Source: Streptomyces sp. GS7 (GTDB lineage Bacteria; Actinomycetota; Actinomycetes; Streptomycetales; Streptomycetaceae). From it: DNA of 64,000 bases. A program made the translations under genes and the position numbers. Where the stretch lies: positions 434,001 to 498,000 of the forward strand of contig NZ_CP047146.1 in NCBI RefSeq assembly GCF_009834125.1, given 5' to 3'. Numbering within the stretch: the stretch's first letter is position 1; every line of letters begins with the position of its first letter. The notes under the pieces are model-generated. The model worked only from the letters and a program-made list of their open reading frames with translations. It made no database searches and was not told the DNA's origin. Of this stretch, positions 2,204 through 53,354 are shown one piece after another.

Positions 2204-2955
2204 GCGAGCCGAAGAACCCCGAGACCCCGGACCGGCCGGACGAGGCCGTCCCGGCGCAGCGCGCGGACACCGGCGAGGTGATCGGCACCCGCCACGGGAT
2301 GTTCGGCGCCAACAACGGAGGAGACACCTCCGGTTACGGCGGGCTGGTGCGCTCCGTCCGGCTGCCCGGCGCGAGCGCGCGGCCGTACGGCGGACCGTCC
2401 GGTGCGGGAGAGTACGGAGAGTTCGACGAGGTCGCCGACGAGCTGGAGGGCGCCCTGGACGAACAGGGCCTGGTGCCCGAGAACGTCATCGAGAAGACCG
2501 TCGTCGACCGCGGCGAGATCACCTTCCACATCGCCCGGGAGCATCTGCCGGCCGCCGCCAGGACGCTGCGCGACGACCCCGCGCTGCGCTTCGAGCTCTG
2601 CACGGGCGTGAGCGGCGTCCACTACCCCGGCGACCAGGGCCGCGAGCTGCACGCCGTCTACCACCTGCGTTCGATCACCCACAACCGGCTGATCCGGCTG
2701 GAGGTCTCGGCCCCGGACGCCGACCCGCACGTGCCCTCGCTCGTCGGGGTCTATCCGACCAACGACTGGCACGAGCGCGAGACCTACGACTTCTTCGGCC
2801 TCGTCTTCGACGGGCACCCGGCGCTCACGCGGATCATGATGCCGGACGACTGGCAGGGCTTCCCGCAGCGCAAGGACTACCCGCTCGGCGGCATTCCCGT
2901 CGAGTACAAGGGCGCCCGGATCCCGGCTCCCGACCAGCGGAGGTCGTACACCTGA
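2200..2955 (+). CDS. nuoC: NADH-quinone oxidoreductase subunit C (30 kDa)
   Basis: Hydrophilic connecting-module subunit that packs against NuoD and NuoB. The family signature around [18 protein letters not shown] is intact near residues 190-207, followed by RKDYPLGG. An N-terminal extension of about 80 polar residues precedes the core and is longer than in E. coli. NuoC and NuoD are separate here, not fused as in enterobacteria. The GTG start overlaps nuoB by 4 bp, and the stop TGA shares a base with the nuoD ATG. Confidence 0.96.
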
Positions 2956-4289
2956 TGAGCACTCCCAGCGAGGCGTCCCGCGCAACCCCCCGCGAGACCA
3001 CGGAAGGCACCGTCTACACGGTCACCGGCGGCGACTGGGACGAGGTCGCGGCGGGCGCCGCCAAGTCCGACGACGAGCGGATCATCGTCAACATGGGGCC
3101 GCAGCACCCGTCCACCCACGGCGTGCTCCGGCTGATCCTGGAGATCGACGGCGAGACCGTCACCGAGGCCCGCTGCGGCATCGGCTACCTGCACACCGGC
3201 ATCGAGAAGAACCTCGAATACCGGACCTGGACGCAGGGCACGACGTTCGTGACGCGGATGGACTACCTGACGCCCTTCTTCAACGAGACGGCCTACTGCC
3301 TGGCCGTGGAGAAGCTGCTCGGCATCACCGACCAGGTGCCCGACCGGGCCTCGGTCATCCGCGTGCTGCTGATGGAGCTCAACCGGCTCTCCTCCCACCT
3401 GGTGTGCATCGCCACCGGCGGCATGGAGCTGGGCGCCACCACGATCATGATCTACGGCTTCCGCGACCGGGAGATGATCCTCGACATCTTCGAGCTGATC
3501 ACCGGCCTGCGGATGAACCACGCCTACATCCGCCCCGGCGGCCTGGCCCAGGACCTGCCGCCGGGCGCCGTCGACCAGGTGCGCGCCTTCGTCAGGAAGA
3601 TGCGCAGGAACCTCGTCGAGTACGACAAGCTCGCCACCGGCAACCCCGTCTTCAAGGGCCGCATGGAGGGCATCGGCTACCTCGACCTGGCCGGCTGCAT
3701 GGCCACCGGAGCCACCGGGCCCATCGTCCGCTCCGCCGGACTGCCCCATGACCTGCGCAGGACGCGGCCGTACTGTGGATACGAGAACTACGACTTCGAG
3801 GTGCCGACAGCCGACACCTGCGATGCCTACGGCCGGTTCCTGATCCGGCTGGAGGAGATGCGCCAGTCGCTCGGCATCGTCGAGCAGTGCCTGGACCGGC
3901 TGGAGCCCGGGCCCGTGATGGTCGCGGACAAGAAGATCGCCTGGCCCGCCCAGCTGGCCCTGGGCCCCGACGGCCTCGGCAATTCCCTCGACCACATCAA
4001 GAAGATCATGGGCACCTCGATGGAGGCCCTGATCCACCACTTCAAGCTGGTGACGGAGGGCTTCCGGGTCCCGCCCGGCCAGGCGTACGCCGCCGTCGAG
4101 TCGCCCAAGGGCGAGCTGGGCGTCCACGCGGTCAGCGACGGTGGCACCCGCCCCTACCGGGTGCACTTCCGCGACCCGTCCTTCACCAACCTGCAGGCCA
4201 TGGCAGCGATGTGTGAAGGCGGCCAGGTCGCCGACGTCATCGTCGCCGTCGCGTCCATCGACCCCGTGATGGGAGGCGTCGACCGGTGA
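2955..4289 (+). CDS. nuoD: NADH-quinone oxidoreductase subunit D (49 kDa)
   Basis: Forms the quinone-reduction chamber with NuoB. The [10 protein letters not shown] motif near residue 50 carries the quinone-contacting His, and the MDYLTP segment carries the Tyr that hydrogen-bonds the quinone head group in this family. Other conserved segments are [11 protein letters not shown] and the DPSFTNLQ region near the C-terminus. It has 444 aa, a normal length with a modest N-terminal extension. It is the only NuoD in the window, because the second nuo cluster lacks one. Confidence 0.97.
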
Positions 4290-39360: not shown

Positions 39361-39762
39361 GTGCTGGACGCGACCGTACGCACCACCGTCGCCGCGGACT
39401 ACTTCCAGGGCTACTCGGTCGTCGGGATCATCGCCGTGGTCGGGGTGCTGTTCGTCGCCGTGGCCTTCGGGGCCGGGCGGCTGCTGCGGCCTGTGGTGCC
39501 GACGCCCGAGAAGCTGCTGACGTATGAATGTGGTGTGGACCCGGTCGGCGAGGGCTGGGCGCACACCCAGGTCCGCTACTACGTCTACGCGTTCCTCTAT
39601 GTCATCTTCGCCGTCGACTCGATCTTCCTGTTCCCCTGGGCGACGGTCTTCGCCGCCCCCGGATTCGGCGGCGTGACGCTGGCGGAGATGTTCGTCTTCC
39701 TCGGCTTCCTGACCGTCGGCCTGCTCTACGCATGGAAGAAGGGCGTCCTGGAATGGACGTGA
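39361..39762 (+). CDS. nuoA2: Second complex I-like cluster: subunit A
   Basis: 133 aa, three TM helices. It has the YECG motif (Glu56), but the third-helix motif reads [12 protein letters not shown]: Ala84 and Asp86 stand where the first copy has Asp72 and Glu74 (FDIE). Those carboxylates are highly conserved in NuoA, so this copy is functionally altered or relaxed. GTG at 39361 follows GGGAGCGAGGGG. It is the first of ten overlapping genes, and nuoB2 begins 10 bp before its stop. Confidence 0.9.
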
Positions 39763-40490
39763 TCCCCGTTCCCGCCGGCTCCGCCGCCGCGTCCGAGAGC
39801 GCCGGCCCCGAGTTCCTGCCGGAGCCGCGTCGGCTGGGCGCGCTCGCCCGGCTCGCGCCCGAACCGATGAAGGTGGTCCTCAACTGGGGCCGCCGCTACA
39901 GCCTGTGGGTATTCAACTTCGGGCTGGCCTGCTGCGCCATCGAGTTCATCGCGGCGTCCATGGCCCGGCACGACTTCATCCGGCTCGGCGTGATCCCGTT
40001 CGCGCCCGGCCCGCGCCAGGCCGACCTGATGGTCGTCTCCGGCACCGTCACCGACAAGATGGCGCCCGCGGTCAAGCGGCTCTACGAGCAGATGCCGGAG
40101 CCGAAGTACGTCATCTCCTTCGGTGCGTGCTCCAACTGCGGCGGCCCCTACTGGGACTCGTACTCGGTCACCAAGGGCGTCGACCAGATCATCCCGGTGG
40201 ACGTGTACGTGCCGGGCTGCCCGCCCCGCCCTGAGGCGCTGCTCCAGGGCATCCTCAAGCTCCAGGAGAAGATCGCCCGCGAGTCGCTGGGCGAGCGCTA
40301 CCCGCGCACCGGCCGGCCGTCCGCCGCCGCGCTGCGCAGCGGGCTCGTCGCACCCCCGGCGGCGCCCCCGGCAGCCAAGGATGCCGGTCCGGCACAGGAG
40401 GCCGGTGCGACCGAGGGGGCAGGTGAGGCCGACGAAGCCGGCGCGGCCAAGGAGCCGGTGGACACCGCGGCGGGGGAGGGCCCCCGATGA
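39753..40490 (+). CDS. nuoB2: Second complex I-like cluster: subunit B
   Basis: 245 aa. The N2-cluster ligands are all present: LACCAIEF, the Cys of GACSNCGG (which has an extra Cys) and VPGCPPRPE. The N-terminus is about 35 residues longer than NuoB1, and an Ala/Glu-rich tail of about 65 residues is added. ATG at 39753 lies inside the end of nuoA2. It should bind a functional N2 cluster, but no partner NuoD is encoded in this cluster. Confidence 0.93.
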
Positions 40491-41875
40491 GCGAGCAGCC
40501 CGACCAGAAGCCTGAGCCGCAGCCGGCGCAGCAGCCCGAGGAGCAAGCGGGGCAGCCCGTAGCGGACGGGCAGTCCCTCGCGAGCGTCCCCGGTCCCGTC
40601 GCGGAGGCGCCCGAGCCCGCCGTCGGCTGGCTGCCGCGCCCGGCGAGCGAGATCTTCGGTACGGGCGCCACGGCGGAGCTGGCGTACGACCTGCTGACCG
40701 TGGACGTCCCGGCGGGCGAATGGATCGACGCGCTCACCGCCGCCCGCGACGACCTCGGCTGCACCTACTTCGACTGGCTGAGCGCCGTCGACGAGCCCGG
40801 TACCGGCTTCCGGATCTGCGCCCACCTCGCGGAGGTGGCGCACCCCGGCACCGTCCGCCGGCTGCTCGTCCGGACGACCGTGCCGCACGACGCGCCCGCG
40901 CTGCCCACCGCCGTCGGCGTGTACGCGGGTGCCGCCTGGCACGAGCGCGAGACGCACGAGATGTTCGGCGTGGACTTCACCGGTCATCCGCACCTCGTCC
41001 CGCTGCTGCTCCCGGACGAGTTCGAGGGACATCCGCTGCGCAAGGACTTCGTGCTCGCGGCACGGGTCGCCAAGGCGTGGCCGGGTGCCAAGGAGCCGGG
41101 GGAGTCCGAGCACGGCGGGCCCAAGCGGCGGCAGATGCTGCCGCCCGGTGTGCCCGACCCCAACGAGTGGGGCCCGCTCAAGGGCCAGTTGCCGCCGGCG
41201 CCGGCGCGCCCGGCGCGTGGTGCGCGTGCGGCGGGCGCCGCGCGGGGCGCGGGTGCCGCCGCCGGCGAGCGCCCGGCCCGGCGTACCCGCAGCGCGAGCG
41301 CGGGCTCGGCCAGCCAGCAGACCGCGGGGACGGAGGCTGCCGCGGGGACGGAGGCCGCCGAGGGGACCGCGACCGGGGCCGGCACCGTGACGGGGCGCCC
41401 GGACCGGCCCGCCCGGCGGATGCGTTCGGCGAGCGAGGGATCGGCGAGCCAGCAGGCCGCCACGGGCAAGGACATCGCCGCGGGCGAGGACACGGCGGCG
41501 GGCAAGGACGCCGCGGTGGGCAAGGACACCGCCGCGCCTGAGGAAGCCCCGGCCGTTCCGGCCGCCCCGCCCGCCGAGGAGACCCCCGCGACCCCGCGTT
41601 CCTCCGACGCGCCCTGGCACCACGCCCGCCCGGCCTTCGACGAATCCCGGCCGGAGCGGAAGCCGGAACCGGAGCGGAAGCCCGAGCCGGACCGCACGCT
41701 TGAGCCGGAATCGAAGCCCGCGCCCGAGCCGGAACCGCAATCGAAGCCCGAGCCCGCGCCCCAGCCCGAACCAGGCCCCAGCCCCGGACCCGGGCCCGCC
41801 CCCAGCCCAGGCCCCGCCCCGAAGCCCGACTCCGCCCACCACCGGCCCGGTGAAGAAGGAGGCGACACCCCGTGA
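40487..41875 (+). CDS. nuoC2: Second complex I-like cluster: subunit C with long disordered tail
   Basis: 462 aa. The 30-kDa fold occupies residues ~50-230 and keeps the signature [18 protein letters not shown] and RKDFVLAA. From residue ~234 to the end is a low-complexity tail: an Ala/Arg-rich part in which RPARRxRSASxGSASQQ occurs twice, then Lys/Glu/Asp repeats (AAGKD-type), then Pro/Glu/Lys-rich repeats. No NuoD domain is fused to it: the PQHPSTHG motif is absent. ATGA overlap with nuoB2; its stop overlaps the nuoH2 GTG. Confidence 0.92.
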
Positions 41876-42837
41876 GCGACACCCTCGCCATCGCGCTGCG
41901 GCTGCTCGCCGTCTTCGTCGTCTTCCTGGTCTTCCCGCTGGTCATCGGCCAGACCGAGCACAAGGTCATGGCCCACATGCAGGGCCGCCTCGGACCGATG
42001 TACGCGGGCGGCTTCCACGGCTGGGCGCAACTGGTCGCCGACGGCGTCAAGTTCGCGCAGAAGGAGGACATCGTCCCGGCCGGCGCCGACCGGCGGATCT
42101 TCCAACTCGCGCCGGCCGTCGCCCTGTTGCCGTACCTCCTGGTCCTTGTCGCCATCCCGATAGGGCCGCACAACGCCGTCGGGCAGGCCCTCGACGCGGG
42201 CATCTTCTTCGTGCTCGCCGTCATGGGCGTCGGCGTGCTCGGCTCCCTGATGGCGGGCTGGGCGTCGGCGAACAAGTTCTCGCTGCTCGGCGGTCTGCGG
42301 ACGGCCGCGCAGCTGCTCGCGTACGAGCTGCCGATGCTGCTGGCCGCCGCGTCCGTCGCGATGGCCGCCGGCACGCTCTCGCTGCCCGGCATCCTCGACG
42401 CCTTCCACTGGTGGTGGGTGCCGTGGCAGATCGTCGGCGGCGTGGTCTTCTTCACCGCGGGGCTCGCCGAGCTGCAGCGACCGCCGTTCGACATGCCGGT
42501 CGCCGACTCGGAGATCATCTTCGGTGCGTACACCGAGTACACGGGGCTGCGCTTCGCGCTCTTCCTGCTCGCCGAGTACGCCGGCATCGTCGTCCTCTGC
42601 GCGCTGACCTCGGTCCTCTTCCTGGGCGGCTGGCACGGCCCGTTCGGCGCCGACGGCCTGGGCTGGCTGTGGACGCTGCTGAAGACCGTGGTGCTCGCCT
42701 TCGGCGTCATCTGGCTGCGGGTCACCTACCCGCGGCTCCGCGAGGACCAGCTCCAGAAGCTCGCCTGGACCGTCCTGATCCCGCTCGCCCTCGCCCAGAT
42801 CGCCCTTACGGGCATCGTCAAGGTGGTGATCTCCTGA
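41872..42837 (+). CDS. nuoH2: Second complex I-like cluster: subunit H
   Basis: 321 aa, eight TM helices, without the C-terminal tail of NuoH1. The first loop reads [20 protein letters not shown], a divergent form of ERKV..QxRxGPN. The third cytoplasmic loop is [19 protein letters not shown]: Val210 and Asp212 stand where the family has the glutamates of P-E-A-E. These residues line the entry to the quinone site in NuoH, so the copy may handle quinone differently. GTG start with 4-bp overlap to nuoC2. Confidence 0.92.
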
Positions 42838-43520
42838 TGGGTATCCCCGGCAGCGGCCTCGCCAAGGGTCTGGCCGTCACCCTGCGCACGATGACCCGGC
42901 GTTCGGTCACCGCCCAGTACCCGGACGTCCAGCCCGACCTCGCGCCCCGTACGCGCGGCGTCATCGGGCTGTTCGAGGAGAACTGCACGGTCTGCATGCT
43001 GTGCGCCCGTGAGTGCCCGGACTGGTGCATCTACATCGACTCCCACAAGGAGACGGTGCCGCCGGCCGCGCCCGGGGGCCGGGAGCGCAGCCGGAACGTC
43101 CTCGACCGCTTCGCCATCGACTTCGCACTGTGCATGTACTGCGGTATCTGCATCGAGGTCTGCCCGTTCGACGCGCTCTTCTGGTCACCGGAGTTCGAGT
43201 ACGCGGAGACGGACATCCGCGAGCTGACCCACGAGCGCGACAAGCTGCGCGAGTGGATGTGGACGGTGCCCGAGCCGCCCGCGCTGGACCCGGCGGCCGA
43301 GGAGCCCAAGGAGATCGCCGCCGCCCGCAAGGCCGCGGACAAACTCGCCGCCCAGCAGGCAGCCGAGGCGGAGGCCGAAGCCGCTGCCGAAGCCGCTGCC
43401 GGAGCCGGAGCCGAAGCGGCGGCCGAAGCGCCCGCCGGGGCGCCGGAGACACCGGACCGGGATGCCAAGGGCATCAAGGACACCAAGGACGTCAAGGACA
43501 CCAAGGAGGAGGGAACGTGA
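42837..43520 (+). CDS. nuoI2: Second complex I-like cluster: subunit I (2x[4Fe-4S])
   Basis: 227 aa. Both ferredoxin motifs are intact: [12 protein letters not shown] and [12 protein letters not shown], so electrons can be relayed to NuoB2. The tail from residue ~165 is Ala/Glu-rich coiled-coil-like sequence ending in Lys/Asp repeats ([12 protein letters not shown]). TGATG overlap with nuoH2. Without NuoG, this subunit is the likely electron entry point, as in ferredoxin-linked complex I relatives. Confidence 0.93.
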
Positions 43521-44134
43521 CGCTCGCCGCCGCAAGCCACGGCTTCCTCTCGCCCACGGGTGTCGAGATCGCCTTCGTCCTCGTCGGTATCGCCACCCTC
43601 GGGGCGGCGATCGTGACCGTCAGCTCCCGCCAGCTGGTGCACGCCGCGCTGTGGCTGGTGGTCGCCCTCGGCGGGATCGCCGTGGAATACCTCCTGCTCA
43701 CCGCCGAGTTCATCGCGTGGGTGCAGGTGCTGATCTACGTCGGCTCCGTCGTCGTCCTGCTGCTCTTCGGGCTGATGCTCACCAAGGCGCCCATCGGCCG
43801 CTCCCCGGACGCCGATTCGGGCAACCGCTGGGCCGCGCTCGCGGTGGCCCTCGCCTCCGCCGCGGCCCTGGTCTGGGTCGTGGTCGACGCGTTCCGCACC
43901 ACCTGGATCACCCTCGACGGCGTCCAGGGCTCCGCAGCAGTCTCCGGGCGCAGCCTCTTCCAGTACTGGGTGCTGCCCTTCGAGGCGCTGTCCGTCCTGC
44001 TGCTCGCCGCGCTCGTCGGGGCGATCGTGCTCTCCCGCAAGGGCGGCGGCGCGACGGGCGCGGCGGAGGGCTCCGCGAAGGGCGCCGTGCGCCGCACCCC
44101 GGACGCCCCCGTCGCCCGGGAGGGGCAGCGCTGA
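43517..44134 (+). CDS. nuoJ2: Second complex I-like cluster: subunit J
   Basis: 205 aa, five TM helices, including [21 protein letters not shown], the counterpart of the VYTGAIM helix in NuoJ1 with Ser-Val-Val in place of Ala-Ile-Met. A short polar tail follows. GTG overlaps nuoI2 by 4 bp; the stop overlaps the nuoK2 ATG by one base. Confidence 0.9.
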
Positions 44135-44508
44135 TGCATCTCGCCTACCCGGCCGTCCTCGCCGTCCTCCTCTTCTGCACCGGCCTGTACGGCGTGCTCG
44201 CCCGCCGCAACGCGATCCTGGTGCTGATGTCCGTCGAGCTGATGCTCAACGCCGTCAACCTCAACCTCGTCGCCTTCGACGTCTGGCTGCGCGACACCCT
44301 GCACGCCGGCCAGGCGCTCACCCTCTTCACCATCGCCGTCGCCGCCGCCGAGATCGGCATCGGCCTGGCGATCGTGCTGCTCGTCTACCGCAACCGCGGC
44401 AGCTCCGACATCGACCGGCTCCGCGACCTCGCCGAGCGGCCGGCCGGGCCGGATGCCGCGGACGGCGACCACCAGCAGCCGGACACCAAGGCGGAGGCCG
44501 CCGCGTGA
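44134..44508 (+). CDS. nuoK2: Second complex I-like cluster: subunit K
   Basis: 124 aa. The two conserved intramembrane glutamates are present ([14 protein letters not shown] and [14 protein letters not shown]), so the half-channel should work. A hydrophilic extension of about 28 residues ([17 protein letters not shown]) is added at the C-terminus relative to NuoK1. Stop overlaps nuoL2. Confidence 0.93.
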
Positions 44509-46502
44509 CGCTCACGACCACCGCCGTACTCGTCCCCCTCCTGCCCTTCCTCGGAGCCGTCGCCGGCCTCCTCCTGGGGCGGAGCGCACCCGGCTTCGTC
44601 CGCCCGCTGGCCGTGCTGCCGACGCTCGCCGCGGCCGTGCTCGCGGTGACCGTCGCCATCGGCCAGGGCACCGGCCCGGCCACCGACGTCGCCACCCGGC
44701 TCACCCCGACCGGCTCGCTCCCCGTCGACCTGGCCCTGCACCTCGACGGCTTCGCCGTGCTGATCGCCGTGCTCGTCGGCGTCGTGGCGACCTGTGTGCA
44801 GATCTACTCCACCGGCTATCTGCGCGACGACCCGCGCTACGCCTCCTACACCGCGCTGGTCTCCCTCTTCACCTCCGCGATGCTGCTGGTCGTCTACACC
44901 GGCGATCTGATGGTGCTGCTGGTCGGCTGGGAAGTCATGGGCATCTGCTCGTACTTCCTCGTCGGCCACTACTGGGAGACCGAGGCCGCCCGCAGCGCCT
45001 CCCTCAAGGCGTTCCTGGTCACCAAGCTCGGCGACGTCCCCTTCCTCTTCGGCATCTTCGCGCTGGCCGCCGAGACCGGTACGTTCCGGATCACCGGCAT
45101 CCTCGGCCACGTCACCCGGGACGGCCTGGACCACCCGACGCTGATCGCGCTGCTGCTGCTGGCCGGCGTCGCGGGCAAGTCCGCGCAGTTCCCACTGCAC
45201 ACCTGGCTCCCGGACGCGATGGCCGGCCCGACGCCCGTCTCGGCGCTCATCCACGCCGCGACGATGGTCGCCGCCGGTGTCTACGTCGTGGCCCGCCTCC
45301 TCCCCGTCTTCGCCGCCTCCGCGGCGGCGCTGGTGGTGCTCGCGGTGATGGCCGCGATCACCATGGTCGGCTCCGCGCTTGCCGCGCTCGCCCAGGACGA
45401 CATCAAGCGCGTACTGGCCTACTCGACCGTCGGGCAGCTCGGCTACATGACCGGTGCGCTGGCCGTCGGCGACCGCGGCGCCGCCGTCTTCCACCTCCTG
45501 TCCCACGGTGCGTTCAAGGCCCTCCTCTTCCTCGGAGCGGGCGTGATCATCCACGCCGCGGGCACCAACTCGCTGGCCGCCATGTCCCGTATGGGCGGCC
45601 TCGCCCAGCGCATCCCGGACGCCTTCTGGACGGTCACCGTCGCGCTGCTCGCGCTCGCCGCCATCCCACCGTTCGCCGGCTTCTTCTCCAAGGAAGCCGT
45701 CCTGGGCGCCGCCGAGCACGCCGCCACCGGTCACGCGGCCGGTATCCCCGGCGCCGCCGGCTGGACCGTGCTGGTCTCCGGACTGCTCACCGCCCTCCTC
45801 ACCGCCGCCTACGCCACCCGTCTGTGGCTGCTGGTCTTCAGGGGCAGGGGCGCCGAGGTCCCGGACCACGGTCCGCAGCCGTTCGCCATGACCTCCGTCC
45901 TGTGGGTCCTCTTCATCCCCACGGTCGGCTTCGGCCTCACCGCCCCCTTCCTGCCCGCCTGGTTCGACGGGCGCTCGCTCGCACCGACCCTGACCACCTC
46001 CGTCCTGGGCACCGGCGCCGCCCTCGTCGGCGGCCTGGTCACCTACGCCGCCTGGCGCCACACCAGCGCCCTGGCCGCTCGCACCCCCCTCCTCGAGCCC
46101 GCCGTCGCCGCCGACGCCGCCCCCGCGCTCGCCGAGGAACTGGCCATCGTCACCCACCCCGCGGCCTACGCGGGCGCCGCCGAGGCCCCGGACCCGGCCG
46201 ACCCCGGCCGCCTCCTGCTCGGCCCGCTGCACCGCCACGCGGCCCTCGGCTTCCACCTGGACGCCGTCTACGCCGCGCTGTTCGTACGGCCCGTCCGCGG
46301 CGCCGCGGAGCTGGTCCGCTTCCTCGACCGCGAGGTCGTCGACACCTACGTCCGCGGCGCCGGCACCGCCCCCCGCTGGCTGGGCGCCGCCGTCCGCCGC
46401 GCCCAGACCGGGAACGTGCAGACCTACCTCGGCGCCCTGCTCGCCGGCTCGCTCGTGCTGGCCGTCGCCGCCGTCCTCGTCGCCACGGCCACGGGGGCCT
46501 GA
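44505..46502 (+). CDS. nuoL2: Second complex I-like cluster: subunit L (antiporter-like)
   Basis: 665 aa. Pump residues are retained: Glu in [20 protein letters not shown], Lys in [20 protein letters not shown] and Lys in [12 protein letters not shown]. The C-terminal part includes the lateral-helix region and ends in a TM segment ([14 protein letters not shown]). GTG start overlaps nuoK2 by 4 bp. A 97-bp gap before nuoM2 is the only real gap in the cluster and holds a short CCGGCTTCGCCGG hairpin. Confidence 0.94.
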
Positions 46503-46599
46503 CGTGCTGCCATCCCCCGGGGGCCGACCCCCGCACCACCGGCCGACAGCCCTCGCAGCCGGCTTCGCCGGAGCCGAAACCCTGAGGTGGGCCTGACCC

Positions 46600-48210
46600 G
46601 TGAATCACACCGCCATGCAGATCCTCCTCGCGGCCGCCGTCGTCCTCCCCCTCGTCGGCGCGCTGGCCGCCCTGCTGCCGGCGCCGCCCGGCCTGAAGGG
46701 CAAGAACCCCGACCAGGCCGTACTGCGCCACGGCGTGACCGTCACCGCGGTCGTGCTCGCCGCGACCCTCGCGCTGGCCGCCGGCTTCGACCGCGGCCAC
46801 CCGGCCCGTATGCAGGCCACCACCGACCTCAGCTGGATCCCGGCGCTCGGCATCCGCATCCACCTCGGCGTCGACGGCATCTCGCTCCCCCTCCTCGTCC
46901 TGACCGCGCTGCTGACCTTCCTCTGCGCCCTCTACAGCTACTTCAAGATGCCAACGGGCCCGTCACCCAAGGCATTTGTGGCGCTGCTGCTCGTCCTGGA
47001 GTCCGGCACCCTCGCGACCTTCGCCGTCCTCGACCTGATGCTGTTCTTCCTCGCCTTCGAGATGGTCCTCATCCCGATGTACTTCCTCATCGCCCGCTGG
47101 GGCGGTGCGCAGAAGCAGGCGGCGGCATGGAAGTTCATCCTCTACACGCTGCTCGGCTCGGTCGTCATGCTGCTCGGCCTCCTCCTCATCGGCCTGAAAT
47201 CCGGCACGTTCGACATGGTCGCACTCGCCACTGACAACGGTCCGAAAGCCCAGCTCAGCCACACGGTCCAGCTGATCGCGGTGCTCGCGGTCGGCATCGG
47301 ACTGGCCGTCAAGTCCCCGCTGTGGCCGCTGCACAGCTGGCTGCCCGACGCCCACACCGCCGCCCCCACCGTCGGCTCGGTGCTGCTGGCCGGCGTCCTG
47401 CTGAAGATGGGCACCTACGGCTTCGTGCGGATCGCGCTGCCCATCACCCCCGACGGCATGCACACCGTCGCGCCCTACCTCGCCGCGTTCGCCGCCGTGG
47501 GCATCATCTACGGATCCCTCGCCTGCCTCGCCCTCGTCCGCAAGGGCGCCAAGGGCGACCTCAAGCGCCTGATCGCCTACAGCTCCGTCGGCCACATGGG
47601 CTTCGTCCTGCTGGGCATCGCCAGCATGACCCCCACCGGGATCAACGGCGCGCTGTTCGCCAACATCGCGCACGGCCTGATCACCGGCCTGCTGTTCTTC
47701 CTCGTCGGCGCCCTCAAGGACCGCTGCGGCAGCACCGACCTCGACACCCTGGCGGGCGCCACCGGCGCCGCTCTCTACGGCAGGGCGCCCCGCTTCGGCG
47801 GACTGCTCGCCTTCGGGGCCGTCGCCTCCCTGGGCCTGCCCGGACTGGCCGGCTTCTGGGGCGAGATGCTGGCGATGTTCGGCGCCTTCCGCCCGGCCGC
47901 GGGACTGAGCCGCCCCGCCTTCCTGACGTTCATGGCACTGGCCGGCCTCGGCACCCTGCTGACCGCGGCCTACCTGCTGCTCGTCGTCCGCCGGGTCTGC
48001 ATGGGCGGCACCCTGACCGCGGAGCCGGCACCCGGGGACGGCACCACGGCGCCGCGCCCCGCCGCCCTCGCCATCCCCGACCTCGCGCGCTACGAATACG
48101 CGGCCTGGAGCCCCCTCGCCGCCCTCACCGTCCTCGCCGGACTGTGGCCCGCGGCCCTCCTCGGCCTCACGAACCCGGCCGTCCAGCAGCTCCTCGGAGG
48201 CGGTAAGTGA
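46600..48210 (+). CDS. nuoM2: Second complex I-like cluster: subunit M (antiporter-like)
   Basis: 536 aa, 14 TM helices. Conserved Glu in FFLAFEMVLIPMYFLIARWG and Lys in LAVKSPLWPLHSWLPDAHTA, followed by APTVGSVLLAGVLLKMGTYG, a segment closer to the canonical NuoM family than NuoM1's. GTG at 46600 with GAGGTGGG upstream. Its stop overlaps nuoN2. Confidence 0.94.
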   Translation: MNHTAMQILLAAAVVLPLVGALAALLPAPPGLKGKNPDQAVLRHGVTVTAVVLAATLALAAGFDRGHPARMQATTDLSWIPALGIRIHLGVDGISLPLLVLTALLTFLCALYSYFKMPTGPSPKAFVALLLVLESGTLATFAVLDLMLFFLAFEMVLIPMYFLIARWGGAQKQAAAWKFILYTLLGSVVMLLGLLLIGLKSGTFDMVALATDNGPKAQLSHTVQLIAVLAVGIGLAVKSPLWPLHSWLPDAHTAAPTVGSVLLAGVLLKMGTYGFVRIALPITPDGMHTVAPYLAAFAAVGIIYGSLACLALVRKGAKGDLKRLIAYSSVGHMGFVLLGIASMTPTGINGALFANIAHGLITGLLFFLVGALKDRCGSTDLDTLAGATGAALYGRAPRFGGLLAFGAVASLGLPGLAGFWGEMLAMFGAFRPAAGLSRPAFLTFMALAGLGTLLTAAYLLLVVRRVCMGGTLTAEPAPGDGTTAPRPAALAIPDLARYEYAAWSPLAALTVLAGLWPAALLGLTNPAVQQLLGGGK

Positions 48211-49724
48211 TGAGCCCGGTCACCTCTCTGGTCCAGTCCGTCGACTGGCTCGCCATCGCCCCGCCCACCATCGCCGCGGCCGTCGCCCTGGCGGTGCTGG
48301 TCGCCGACCTCTTCCTGCCCGCCGCCCGGAAGCCGCTGCTCGGCTGGATCGCGACCGCGGGCCTGGCCCTCGCCGCGCTGTCCCTGCTGCCCCTCCTGGA
48401 CGGCCACCGCCGCACCTTCTGCCTCACCGGCCGGCCGGACGTGTGCAGTTACGCGGCCGACCACTTCGCGCTGGTCATCCAGTTCCTGGTGCTGGCCGGC
48501 GCGCTGCTGACCGCCCTGCTGTCCATCGACACCATCAAGGACCACGACCTGCCCACCGGCGAGTACTGGTTCCTGCTGCTCTCCTCCGCGGCCGGCGCCG
48601 CCCTGCTGCCCGCCTCCCGGGACCTCGCCACCCTGGTCATCGCCCTCGAAGTCGCCTCCCTGCCCGCCTTCGCCCTCGTAGGGCTGCGGCGCGGCGACCG
48701 GCTCTCCTCCGAGGCGGCCCTGAAGTTCTTCCTGTCCTCCGTGGCCGCCACCGCCGTGATGCTGCTCGGCGTCAGCTTCCTGTACGCGGCCACCGGGAGC
48801 CTGCACCTCTCCCAGGTGGCGCACGCCCTCACCGCCCTCCCGGACCCCCGCCTGGCCACCCTCGCGAGCGCCGGAGTCGCGCTCACCCTCGTCGGCTTCG
48901 CCTTCAAGACCGCCGCCGTCCCGTTCCACTTCTGGGTGCCGGACACCTACGTCGGCGCGCCGCTGCCGATCGCCGCGTACCTCTCCGTGGTCGGCAAGGC
49001 CGTCGGCTTCTCCGGCCTGATCCTGGTCACCGTGCGGGGCTTCCCCTCGTACGCGAACGTCTGGGGCCCGGCGCTGGCCGTCCTCGCCGCGCTCACCATG
49101 ACCGTCGGCAACGTCGCCGCCCTCCGCCAGGACCCGTACCGGACCCACAGCGCGGTCCGCCTGCTCGCCTGGTCCTCGGTGGGCCAGGCCGGCTACCTCC
49201 TGGTCCCGATCGCCGCCGCCGGCTACGCCCACGACCCGGCGCACGCCATCGGCTCCACCGTCGCCTACGCCCTCATGTACGGCGCGGTGAACCTCGGTGC
49301 CTTCGCCGTCGCCGCCCTGGTGGCCCGCACCAGCCCCGCCCACCGCATCGCCGACTACCGGGGCCTCTACGCCCGCCGCCCCCTGGTGGCGCTCGCCCTC
49401 GGCTTCTTCCTGCTCTGCCTCGCCGGTCTGCCGCCGGGCATCATCGGCCTCTTCGCCAAGGTGACGGTCTTCTCCGCGGCCGTCGACGCCGGCCTGGGCT
49501 GGCTCGCCGTCGTGATGGCCGTCAACGTCGTGATCGCGCTCTACTACTACCTCCAGTGGACGGCGGTCCTCTTCCGCGGCGACGGAGCCCCGGCCGCCGA
49601 AACGCCCCGCGCCCGGATCCCGGCCGCCCTCACCACCGCCATCACCCTGGCCGCGGCCCTCGGCATCGCCCTGTCCGGAGCCCCCCAACTGGTCCTCCGC
49701 TTCGCCTCCGGGGCACTCCTCTAG
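48207..49724 (+). CDS. nuoN2: Second complex I-like cluster: subunit N (antiporter-like)
   Basis: 505 aa. Conserved Glu in VIALEVASLPAFALVGLRRG and Lys in FAFKTAAVPFHFWVPDTYVG. GTG 48207 has GGAGG 6 bp upstream; the adjacent ATG at 48210 is an alternative. Last gene of the cluster, followed after about 20 bp by a hairpin. All three antiporter-like subunits of this cluster keep their charged pump residues, so proton or cation translocation is plausible. Confidence 0.94.
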   Translation: MMSPVTSLVQSVDWLAIAPPTIAAAVALAVLVADLFLPAARKPLLGWIATAGLALAALSLLPLLDGHRRTFCLTGRPDVCSYAADHFALVIQFLVLAGALLTALLSIDTIKDHDLPTGEYWFLLLSSAAGAALLPASRDLATLVIALEVASLPAFALVGLRRGDRLSSEAALKFFLSSVAATAVMLLGVSFLYAATGSLHLSQVAHALTALPDPRLATLASAGVALTLVGFAFKTAAVPFHFWVPDTYVGAPLPIAAYLSVVGKAVGFSGLILVTVRGFPSYANVWGPALAVLAALTMTVGNVAALRQDPYRTHSAVRLLAWSSVGQAGYLLVPIAAAGYAHDPAHAIGSTVAYALMYGAVNLGAFAVAALVARTSPAHRIADYRGLYARRPLVALALGFFLLCLAGLPPGIIGLFAKVTVFSAAVDAGLGWLAVVMAVNVVIALYYYLQWTAVLFRGDGAPAAETPRARIPAALTTAITLAAALGIALSGAPQLVLRFASGALL

Positions 49725-50897: not shown

Positions 50898-51290
50898 ATG
50901 AAGTTCATCCTCAACATTCTCTGGCTGATCCTCTGCGGCTTCTGGATGGCGCTCGGCTACGTACTCGCCGGAATCGTCTGCTGCATCCTGATCATCACGA
51001 TCCCGTTCGGCATCGCGTCGTTCCGTATCGCCGGCTACGCGCTCTGGCCGTTCGGCCGCACCACCGTGGAGCGGCGGGATGCCGGTGCGGGTTCGGTGAT
51101 CGGCAACATCATCTGGATCGTCTTCGCGGGCTGGTGGCTGGCCCTGGGCCATATAGTCACCGGTATCGCGCTGTGCGTGACGATCATCGGGATCCCGTTC
51201 GGCATCGCCAACTTCAAGATGATCCCGATCTCCCTGCTGCCGCTCGGCCGCGAGATCGTCCCCACCGACCAGCCCTTCGCGACGCGCTGA
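50898..51290 (+). CDS. yccF: YccF-family small membrane protein
   Basis: 130 aa with two copies of an inner-membrane YccF domain: ILNILWLILCGFWMALGYVL...ITIPFGIASFRIAGYALWPFG and IGNIIWIVFAGWWLALGHIV...IIGIPFGIANFKMIPISLLPLG. About four TM helices. Function unknown in the family. ATG at 50898 gives the expected full-length start. Two 3' fragments of closely related sequence lie downstream (51860 and 52618), showing local duplication. Confidence 0.9.
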   Translation: MKFILNILWLILCGFWMALGYVLAGIVCCILIITIPFGIASFRIAGYALWPFGRTTVERRDAGAGSVIGNIIWIVFAGWWLALGHIVTGIALCVTIIGIPFGIANFKMIPISLLPLGREIVPTDQPFATR

Positions 51291-51391
51291 AACGCAAGCC
51301 GCTGAAACGCAACGCGCCGAACGCGACGCGCAGATGCCCCATGCATGACGCCGCACCCCGGAGCAACGCGCTCCGGGGTGCGGTGGTGGTG

Positions 51392-51739
51392 TCAGCGGCC
51401 GCCTCGGCCGCCTCCGCCGCCCAGGGCACCCCGTCCGCCCAGGAAGCCCCGGCCGCCCCGGCCGATCGGGTCCGTCACGACGGTGCCGGAAATGCTGCCC
51501 CCGGCGTTCTGGGCGATGCTGGCGATGTTCTTCTGGTTGTCGATGAGGATGTTCGTGCGGCAACCGCCTCCGGGTGTGAGGGTCGGCAGCAGGCTCAAAA
51601 AGCTGGATGACGGCGCGCAGTGAATGTGCTGACCGAAGTACTCGCCACCCCGGCCCCCGGCGTCGGCCGTGCCTGCCGCCGACAGCAGCAGCGCACCGGT
51701 CCCGAGGGTGCCCGCGACCACACGCAATGTCTTACCCAC
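51392..51739 (-). CDS. Small secreted Gly-rich protein, copy 1
   Basis: 115 aa. The N-terminus MGKTLRVVAGTLGTGALLLS and AAGTADA|GG form a clear signal peptide with an AxA cleavage site near residue 27. The mature part has two Cys (HCAPSS and GGCRTN), which could form a disulfide, a middle region NQKNIASIAQNAGGSISGTV and a Gly/Arg-rich tail (GRGGRGFLGGRG). Not a chaplin (no chaplin hydrophobic pattern) and no family recognised. GTG start at 51739, GGAAGG upstream. Paralogue at 53010. Nothing in the sequence fixes the function. Confidence 0.75.
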   Translation of the reverse strand: MGKTLRVVAGTLGTGALLLSAAGTADAGGRGGEYFGQHIHCAPSSSFLSLLPTLTPGGGCRTNILIDNQKNIASIAQNAGGSISGTVVTDPIGRGGRGFLGGRGALGGGGGRGGR

Positions 51740-52617: not shown

Positions 52618-52908
52618 ATCCCGTTCGGCGTCGCGTCGTTCCGTATCGCCGGCTGCGCGCTCTGGCCATCCCGCCGCACCACCGTGGAGCGGCGGGATGC
52701 CGGTGCGGGTTCGGTGATCGGCAACATCATCTGGATCGTCTTCGCGGGCTGGTGGCTGGCCCTGGGCCATATAGTCACCGGTATCGCGCTGCGCGTGACG
52801 ATCATCGGGATCCCGTTCGGCATCGCCAACTTCAAGATGATCCCGATCTCCCTGCTGCCGCTCGGCCGCGAGATCGTCCCCACCGACCAGCCCTTCGCGA
52901 CGCGCTGA
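52618..52908 (+). pseudogene. 5'-truncated yccF copy
   Basis: Encodes IPFGVASFRIAGCALWP and then the whole second half of YccF to FATR and stop, nearly identical to 51000-51290. The first ~34 codons, including the start and the first TM helix, are missing. An in-frame TGA lies two codons upstream of the homology. Two changes near the break (Tyr to Cys, Phe-Gly to Ser-Arg) and one later (Cys to Arg) have accumulated. Translation could only begin internally, so it is considered a pseudogene. Confidence 0.8.
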
Positions 52909-53009
52909 AACGCAAGCCGCTGAAACGCAACGCGCCAAACGCGACGCGCGGATACGCCATGCATGACGCCGCACCCCGGAGCAACGCGCTCCGGGGTGCG
53001 GTGGTGGTG

Positions 53010-53354
53010 TCAGCGGCCGCCTCGGCCACCTCCGCCGCCCAGGGCACCCCGTCCGCCCAGGAAGCCCCGGCCGCCCCGGCCGATCGGGTCCGTCACGACG
53101 GTGCCGGAAATGCTGCCCCCGGCGTTCTGGACGATGCTGGCGATCCTCTTCTGGTTGTCGATGAAGATGTTCGTGCGGCAACCGTCCCCGGGCGTGAGGG
53201 ACGGCAGCAGGCTGAAGCTGAATGACGGCGCGCAGTGAATGTGCTGATCGAAGTACTCGCCACCCTGGCCTCCGGCGCTGGCCGTGCCTGCCGCCGACAG
53301 CAGCAGGGCACCGGTCCCGAGGGTGCCCGCGACCACACGCATTGTCTTACCCAC
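53010..53354 (-). CDS. Small secreted Gly-rich protein, copy 2
   Basis: 114 aa paralogue of the gene at 51392, about 87 % identical by eye. Signal peptide MGKTMRVVAGTLGTGALLLS, AGTASA|GG cleavage, two Cys, and the same Gly-rich tail. Differences cluster in the centre of the mature part (FSFSLLPSLTPGDG against SSFLSLLPTLTPGGG) and the upstream region is also conserved, so it is probably expressed. Reading frame intact, unlike the yccF copy beside it, suggesting selection for this gene. Confidence 0.75.
   Translation of the reverse strand: MGKTMRVVAGTLGTGALLLSAAGTASAGGQGGEYFDQHIHCAPSFSFSLLPSLTPGDGCRTNIFIDNQKRIASIVQNAGGSISGTVVTDPIGRGGRGFLGGRGALGGGGGRGGR

Follow-up and report, generated by a model that had tools for sequence, protein, structure and literature searches.

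A Complex I-like nuo2 Gene Set of Streptomyces sp. GS7 with an Unlinked nuoD2 and a Tryptophan at the Quinone-Tyrosine Position of NuoD2

Introduction

A second set of complex I genes has been described in Streptomyces. According to passages of PMC3765725, it comprises nuoA2, nuoB2, nuoD2 and nuoH2–nuoN2, which are contiguous apart from nuoD2; the RNA-seq data presented there suggest expression as one operon, and an antisense RNA running from nuoM2 to nuoL2 was found to be conserved. The same nuo2 arrangement with an unlinked nuoD2 is reported for S. ambofaciens in a passage of PMC8388888. In a passage of PMC9239103, nuo2 is said to be devoid of NuoC, NuoD, NuoE, NuoF, NuoG and NuoL, and a hybrid with canonical subunits is regarded as possible. 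Here, the nuo2 genes of Streptomyces sp. GS7 were analyzed. The cluster nuoA2–nuoN2 is located at positions 39361–49724 of the window, i.e., the whole analyzed stretch of 64,000 nucleotides (bases 434001–498000 of the 9.07-Mb single-contig genome).

Two sites of complex I were used to compare nuo2 with known enzymes. Passages of PMC8042128 describe an intersubunit residue switch, in which the arginine that packs against cluster N2 is provided by NDUFS2 in Yarrowia (R121, paired with threonine in NDUFS7) and by Nqo6 in Thermus (R83, paired with threonine in Nqo4); a key/lock role in assembly was proposed for it. In human complex I, the switch arginine, Arg85 of NDUFS2, is dimethylated by NDUFAF7 (passages of PMC3829151 and PMC8042128). 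The second site is the tyrosine at position 87 of Thermus Nqo4, described in a part of the review PMC8119997 as strictly conserved, as binding the quinone head group and as a proposed proton donor.

Identification and Origin of nuoD2

The nuo2 cluster of the window consists of ten intact open reading frames (ORFs) on the plus strand in the order A2-B2-C2-H2-I2-J2-K2-L2-M2-N2, with no nuoD, nuoE, nuoF or nuoG among them. The initial annotation of this stretch held that no gene had been lost and that either NuoD1 is shared, a distant NuoD-like protein substitutes for it or another electron acceptor is used. A search of the genome with the PF00346 profile revealed two genes, namely nuoD1 in the window and nuoD2 (8528544–8529686 of the contig, plus strand), located outside the window, 8.04 Mb further along the contig. 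The nuoD2 frame (436 aa) matched PF00346 with 163.8 and 74 bits, and its nearest named match belongs to a Streptomyces (96%). Neither sharing of NuoD1 nor a distant substitute is therefore the answer, as a bona fide NuoD2 is encoded elsewhere. The search for a second nuoD or a hydrogenase large subunit, which the initial annotation had proposed, also returned two distant PF00374 genes. Of the refuting observation named in that annotation, a NuoD2 encoded elsewhere and co-purifying with NuoB2, the finding of nuoD2 supplies the first half. The absence of NuoD, as it was posed, is solved, and the solution is largely in print already.

In four relatives from the same phylum (L023–L026), the gene order is A2-B2-C2-D2-H2-I2-J2-K2-L2-M2-N2, with nuoD between nuoC and nuoH and no nuoE, nuoF or nuoG there. 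Many of the 80 named loci, selected as the most similar of 592 candidates, have nuoD at the same position, among them loci of Acidimicrobiia, although several of the 80 are truncated at contig ends. The statement that no gene had been lost was thus misleading. The simplest reading is an ancestral position of nuoD2 flanked by nuoC2 and nuoH2, from which the gene was relocated on the branch that gave rise to Streptomyces and further families of its class. In addition, the end of an operon resembling cluster 1 was found upstream of nuoA2 in L023–L025 (about 3 kb away), L122, L126, L133 and L136, which may explain the nearness of both nuo clusters in Streptomyces. In unrooted trees of NuoD, NuoB and NuoH, the cluster 2 proteins and the in-operon proteins of L023, L024, L025 and L122 were separated from the rest with support values of 0.989, 1.0 and 0.977, respectively. 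Since the trees of three subunits give the same grouping, nuoD2 shares its ancestry with the rest of nuo2. In one further genome (G315, L076:5252–10000), L- and M-like antiporter genes come after nuoD2, and no other nuo2 gene was found in the fetched stretch.

Arginine Switch at Cluster N2

The switch residues of NuoD and NuoB in this genome are Thr/Arg in cluster 1 (nuoD1, 2955–4289, motif LHTGIEK; nuoB1, 1631–2203, motif GRVSQKM; both on the plus strand) and Arg/Thr in cluster 2 (Arg55 of NuoD2; motif GTVTDKM of NuoB2). Cluster 2 is opposite to cluster 1, and both switch states therefore coexist in one genome. A comparison of 82 NuoD/NuoB pairs revealed a consistent rule within the sample: 26 pairs were Thr/Arg, 56 were Arg/Thr and none had two arginines or no arginine. 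Of the 56 Arg/Thr pairs, 40 came from the same locus, with tryptophan at the quinone site in half of them and tyrosine in the other half; the remaining 16 were unlinked, each from a different genome. Because exactly one arginine was present in every pair, NuoB2 is predicted to need NuoD2, and, following the published key/lock idea, the switch state would dictate this pairing. Sharing of NuoD1 with nuo2 was rejected on the same grounds, given that NuoD2 exists and that N2 would lose its arginine in a NuoB2/NuoD1 pair. Another position, Tyr117 of NuoB versus tryptophan, looked discriminating in the sample; it was not used, as mitochondrial NDUFS7 has tyrosine.

These data bear on the idea that nuo2 subunits swap into the canonical complex I, giving hybrids with NuoD1 and NuoEFG. 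Swapping of NuoL2 and NuoM2 for NuoL and NuoM was proposed in a passage of PMC3765725, and a nuo/nuo2 hybrid was proposed for a gbn mutant in a passage of PMC9239103. However, the second set is complete; NuoC2 and NuoL2 are clearly present in the window and NuoD2 in the genome, contrary to the gene list in that passage. A NuoB2/NuoD1 combination would lack the arginine at N2 and a NuoB1/NuoD2 combination would have two, and neither state occurred in the sample. Moreover, nuo2 with its own nuoD forms a self-contained operon in other lineages. The swapping of membrane-arm subunits alone lies outside the reach of the N2 argument. Overall, hybrids of this kind are considered improbable.

Methyltransferase Gene midA beside nuoD2

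The gene midA (8527316–8528464 of the contig, plus strand, outside the window) precedes nuoD2 on the same strand by about 80 bp. It is the sole PF02636 (Methyltransf_28) gene of the genome, with a score of 68.8 bits against a cut-off of 23.3. A profile built from 11 relatives of MidA matched the solved NDUFAF7 homologue 5ztz (E 2.5e-10), and MidA was assigned to the NDUFAF7/MidA family by this homology together with the domain match. NuoD1 has no arginine at the methylation-target position. The family of MidA, its linkage to nuoD2 and the lack of such an arginine in NuoD1 point to methylation of Arg55 of NuoD2 in the course of assembly as its most likely role.

In a survey of 344 genomes of the class, NuoD2 (E ≤ 1e-110) was found in 110 and a MidA match (E ≤ 1e-3) in 126; both were found in 108 genomes and neither in 216. 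All 106 pairs of nuoD2 and midA on the same contig were within 11 kb, 44 of them within 1 kb, and two further pairs were on different contigs. All 37 genomes sampled from the genus had both NuoD2 and MidA, and four relative orientations of the two genes were seen among them, so the neighborhood is kept and the arrangement is not. Of the named loci, 35 have an unlinked nuoD2; midA was found in the fetched flank of 32 of these, and one genome match each was obtained for the other three. Nine named loci contain nuoB, nuoD and midA, with midA located 57–319 bp after nuoN2, and the same order was found in L026; one lineage thus has midA within the series of nuo2 genes, and another has it beside nuoD2. 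Genes for a two-component pair (a DUF7134 histidine kinase and a LuxR-type regulator; L004:5508–7567) adjoin midA on the opposite strand.

The same survey bears on the possibility that nuo2 is a relic under loss and nuoD2 a stray paralogue. In G060 (L041), nuo2 seems to be in decay: nuoH2 was found in short pieces, and an HtpX-like gene, as judged by reading, follows nuoI2 where nuoJ2–nuoN2 would be expected. In G192 (L042), about 5 kb of other genes separate nuoB2 from nuoC2 and nuoH2 from nuoI2. The presence of both proteins in every sampled genome of the genus, the ten intact frames of the GS7 cluster and the transcription of the operon indicated in PMC3765725 make this explanation very unlikely. 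The genes inserted in G192 appeared unrelated to nuo2 on reading.

Quinone Site of NuoD2

In the alignment with Thermus Nqo4, Trp78 of NuoD2 corresponded without gaps to position 87, a tyrosine, and His29 to His38. Tryptophan occupied the position of the quinone tyrosine in all 92 NuoD2 sequences (71 unlinked and 21 in operons), which are from actinobacterial genomes except for L126, a record labelled as an Acidobacteria metagenome-assembled genome. In contrast, tyrosine was found in all 54 other NuoD sequences of the sample, namely 26 of 26 from actinobacterial clusters 1, including NuoD1 of this genome, and 28 of 28 from other phyla. The latter include L152, L159, L160 and L163, which were below the NuoD length filter and were read separately (all with arginine and tyrosine), while a hydrogenase-like large subunit (L043; VHKGIEK, neither tyrosine nor tryptophan) was left out of the counts. 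A scan for positions separating the groups revealed only two, the Tyr/Trp site and a Met/Leu position adjacent to the switch arginine of NuoD. With one or two exceptions, the NuoD2 sequences retained the equivalents of Thermus His34 and His38, and all 92 had the arginine at the third position before Trp78. Of the histidine and tyrosine of NuoD that mark a quinone-reducing complex I, the histidine is kept and the tyrosine is replaced by Trp78; because of this replacement, nuo2 is called a complex I-like variant here and its quinone reduction is only presumed. An IHHF segment was present in 24 cluster 1 NuoD proteins and absent from all 92 NuoD2. Its use to recognize the NADH module in general was rejected, since L144 and L146, which have nuoE, nuoF and nuoG, lack the pattern and only 27 of 50 non-NuoD2 NuoD sequences match it.

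The tryptophan raises the question of whether the complex I-like pump encoded by nuo2 uses a different acceptor or carries out a strongly altered quinone reaction. This explanation overlaps with the preferred one, the dedicated complex set out below, which leaves the acceptor open. It is favored by the strict division between tryptophan and tyrosine in the sample and by the role that the review PMC8119997, in the part cited above, gives to the lost residue. However, the two histidines are nearly always kept, the arginine before Trp78 is invariant, the tunnel subunit NuoH2 is retained and tryptophan is still able to stack and to form hydrogen bonds. We regard a different acceptor or a strongly altered reaction as a serious alternative with perhaps one chance in a few. 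Another electron acceptor, as worded in the initial annotation, was wrong, but the idea received partial and unexpected support from the change of tyrosine to tryptophan.

Organization of the nuo2 Cluster

The genes nuoA2, nuoB2, nuoC2, nuoH2 and nuoI2 were assigned by a Pfam scan above the cut-off, and nuoJ2–nuoN2 by similarity to cluster 1. NuoA2 (39361–39762; PF00507, 110 bits), NuoB2 (39756–40490; PF01058; the GTG start at 39756 was chosen by us), NuoC2 (40487–41875; PF00329 at residues 72–193) and NuoH2 (41872–42837; PF00146, 335 bits) matched their own nuo families. NuoI2 (42837–43520) matched a 4Fe-4S family. The remaining genes encode NuoJ2 (43517–44134; 34% identity to NuoJ1), NuoK2 (44134–44508; 48% to NuoK1) and the antiporter-like subunits NuoL2 (44505–46502; 36% to NuoL1), NuoM2 (46600–48210; 37% to NuoM1) and NuoN2 (48207–49724; 37% to NuoN1). 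Identity of the ten subunits to their cluster 1 counterparts was 33–48%, which indicates that nuo2 is an old paralogue and not a recent copy. Eight of the nine junctions are overlaps of 1–7 bp and the remaining one, nuoL2–nuoM2, is a 97-bp gap; the stop of nuoC2 (41875) and the start of nuoH2 (41872) overlap by 4 bp. The cluster is real and intact and nuoC2 ends inside the start of nuoH2, as initially annotated.

The N2 cysteines of NuoB2 and both CxxCxxCxxxC motifs of NuoI2 are retained, so the complex should pass electrons, in agreement with the initial annotation. The claim that the charged residues of the pump are kept was borne out in part. In NuoL2, NuoM2 and NuoN2, the Glu/Lys positions were retained in the searched motifs, except for AVRLL (arginine) in NuoN2 versus DIKRL (lysine) in NuoN1; changes of acidic residues were found elsewhere in the proton path, in NuoA2 and NuoH2 (see below).

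NuoC2 carries a tail of 257 residues after the 30-kDa domain that is rich in alanine, proline and glutamate. In G082, the match to nuoC2 stops close to nuoH2, so this long tail may be confined to the Streptomyces side. Downstream of nuo2, the regions at about 51100–51620 and 52700–53240 encode almost identical frames, apparently a local duplication.

The window also contains a 14-gene nuo cluster extending from nuoA1 (from 1262) to the end of nuoN1 (17418), identified by reading, with NuoD1 and NuoF1 confirmed by family. No nuoE, nuoF or nuoG was found within nuo2, which distinguishes it from a 14-subunit NADH complex I and agrees with the initial annotation. A genome-wide search with PF01512 (NuoF), made without corresponding family searches for NuoE and NuoG, gave one protein besides NuoF1. 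This NuoF-like protein (L007) has a C-terminal ferredoxin-like domain on reading, and a small membrane protein is encoded next to it. A second NADH module for nuo2 was rejected, as the PF01512 search gave only this protein.

F420H2 dehydrogenases and energy-converting hydrogenases share much of the same core as complex I, and the cluster could in principle encode an Fpo-like enzyme or such a hydrogenase. However, a search of the genome with PF04432 (FrhB/FpoF) gave no match, and F420H2 as a donor through FpoF was rejected. NuoD2 contains no CxxC motif, whereas the Ni–Fe site of group 4 hydrogenases has two CxxC pairs. The two PF00374 genes, at 4.08 and 5.67 Mb, are distant from both nuo2 and nuoD2, and a hydrogenase large subunit in place of NuoD was set aside. 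This explanation is the least likely of those considered, with hardly any weight left to it. A further cluster in G172 (L043:248–7206) resembles a relative of group 4 hydrogenases, with the motif VHKGIEK in its large subunit.

Proposed Enzyme

Gene content, the in-operon order in relatives and co-occurrence support an 11-gene set formed by nuoA2–nuoN2 and the unlinked nuoD2. We consider it quite probable that these genes encode a dedicated 11-subunit complex I-like enzyme without the NADH module, in which NuoB2 pairs with NuoD2 and not with NuoD1, Arg55 of NuoD2 is methylated by MidA and packs against N2, at which NuoB2 has threonine, a soluble donor delivers electrons via NuoI2 and the acceptor binds near Trp78. 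Entry at NuoI2 from a carrier such as ferredoxin is a tentative suggestion. From there, electrons would travel via N2 in NuoB2 to an acceptor located in the pocket formed by NuoB2, NuoD2 and NuoH2, where Trp78 replaces the quinone tyrosine. The acceptor is probably (mena)quinone, and the antiporter-like subunits of the membrane arm would pump protons. Quinone as the acceptor is the least certain of these steps because of Trp78 and the altered acidic positions in NuoA2 and NuoH2. As to the donor, passages of PMC11238625 report an unsuccessful search for a common donor of NuoEFG-free complexes and discuss ferredoxin for the organism studied there. The ORFs between midA and nuoD2 vary among five relatives, and reading them, with no Pfam run, gave no candidate for a linked electron-donor gene.

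Several observations speak against parts of this proposal. NuoA2 of Streptomyces has FAVD where NuoA1 and the in-operon NuoA2 have FDIE or FDVE, and NuoH2 has PVADSE at the place of PESEGD in NuoH1; the proton path is therefore not retained at every charged residue. Together with the tryptophan at position 78, these changes cast doubt on canonical quinone-driven pumping. The assembly of 11 subunits is deduced from genes. As for methylation, the arginine at the switch site is not always modified; in complex I of E. coli, it carries no methyl group (a passage of PMC8042128). A MidA match without NuoD2 was obtained in 18 of the 344 genomes at the threshold used, and NuoD2 without MidA in two, in one of which (G585) nuoD2 is at a contig end. 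No PF02636 match was found in G010, G207 and G028 from a sister lineage with an in-operon nuoD2; PF02636 also overlooked the midA of G260, which was found by another route, so midA is either not always needed or was missed. Searches with actinobacterial queries revealed no midA in the fetched flanks of HRG-type NuoD loci of other phyla (L139–L141, L143–L167). In G060, nuoD2 and midA remain open frames despite the fragmented nuoH2. Finally, neither the 82 switch pairs nor the co-occurrence counts represent independent events, as the sequences and genomes are related by descent.

A broader proposal goes beyond the GS7 enzyme. There may be an actinobacterial complex I-like class that functions without the tyrosine regarded as indispensable for quinone reduction, in which tryptophan is located beside an arginine methylated by a dedicated, linked NDUFAF7-type enzyme, either menaquinone is reduced by another protonation route or electrons go to another acceptor, and a canonical complex I with the opposite switch is present in the same cell. 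We put this forward as plausible, with the chances slightly against it.

The mechanism of coupling in complex I is debated around precisely the residues that are altered in nuo2. A natural enzyme family with tryptophan for tyrosine in a well-studied genus would allow the proton-donor role of the tyrosine to be tested without crippling mutants. Both switch states occur in one bacterium, and only one has an arginine in NuoD where NDUFAF7-type enzymes act, which offers a clean system for the role of this modification. The hybrid idea for Streptomyces nuo2 becomes a testable prediction of which NuoD pairs with which NuoB. Our literature searches did not turn up the use of switch states to argue against hybrids at the N2 site, a link between nuoD2 and a gene for an NDUFAF7-type methyltransferase (judged from the listings) or any title or abstract opening pointing to a natural tryptophan in place of the quinone tyrosine.

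Comparison with Known Systems

The nuo2 genes of PMC3765725, PMC8388888 and PMC9239103 are the same as those analyzed here, and the unlinked nuoD2 is named in the first two; the passages of these papers make no mention of the N2 switch, the midA linkage, the tryptophan or the in-operon nuoD of relatives. The complex of Desulfitobacterium hafniense, as described in passages of PMC11238625, has in common with nuo2 a subunit set without NuoEFG. Streptomyces differs from it in having nuoD outside the operon, a linked MidA/NDUFAF7 gene and a second, 14-gene complex I; on the Streptomyces side, NuoD2 carries the tryptophan. Complex I of Thermus thermophilus (threonine in Nqo4 and Arg83 in Nqo6) has the switch state of Streptomyces cluster 1, whereas cluster 2 has the opposite, mitochondrial-type state. 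With NDUFAF7 and Arg85 of NDUFS2 (passages of PMC3829151 and PMC8042128), nuo2 shares a methyltransferase of the same family, whose gene here adjoins that of a NuoD homologue carrying the target arginine. Unlike the human pair, these are neighboring or operon genes of bacteria, and their link is one seen at the level of genes.

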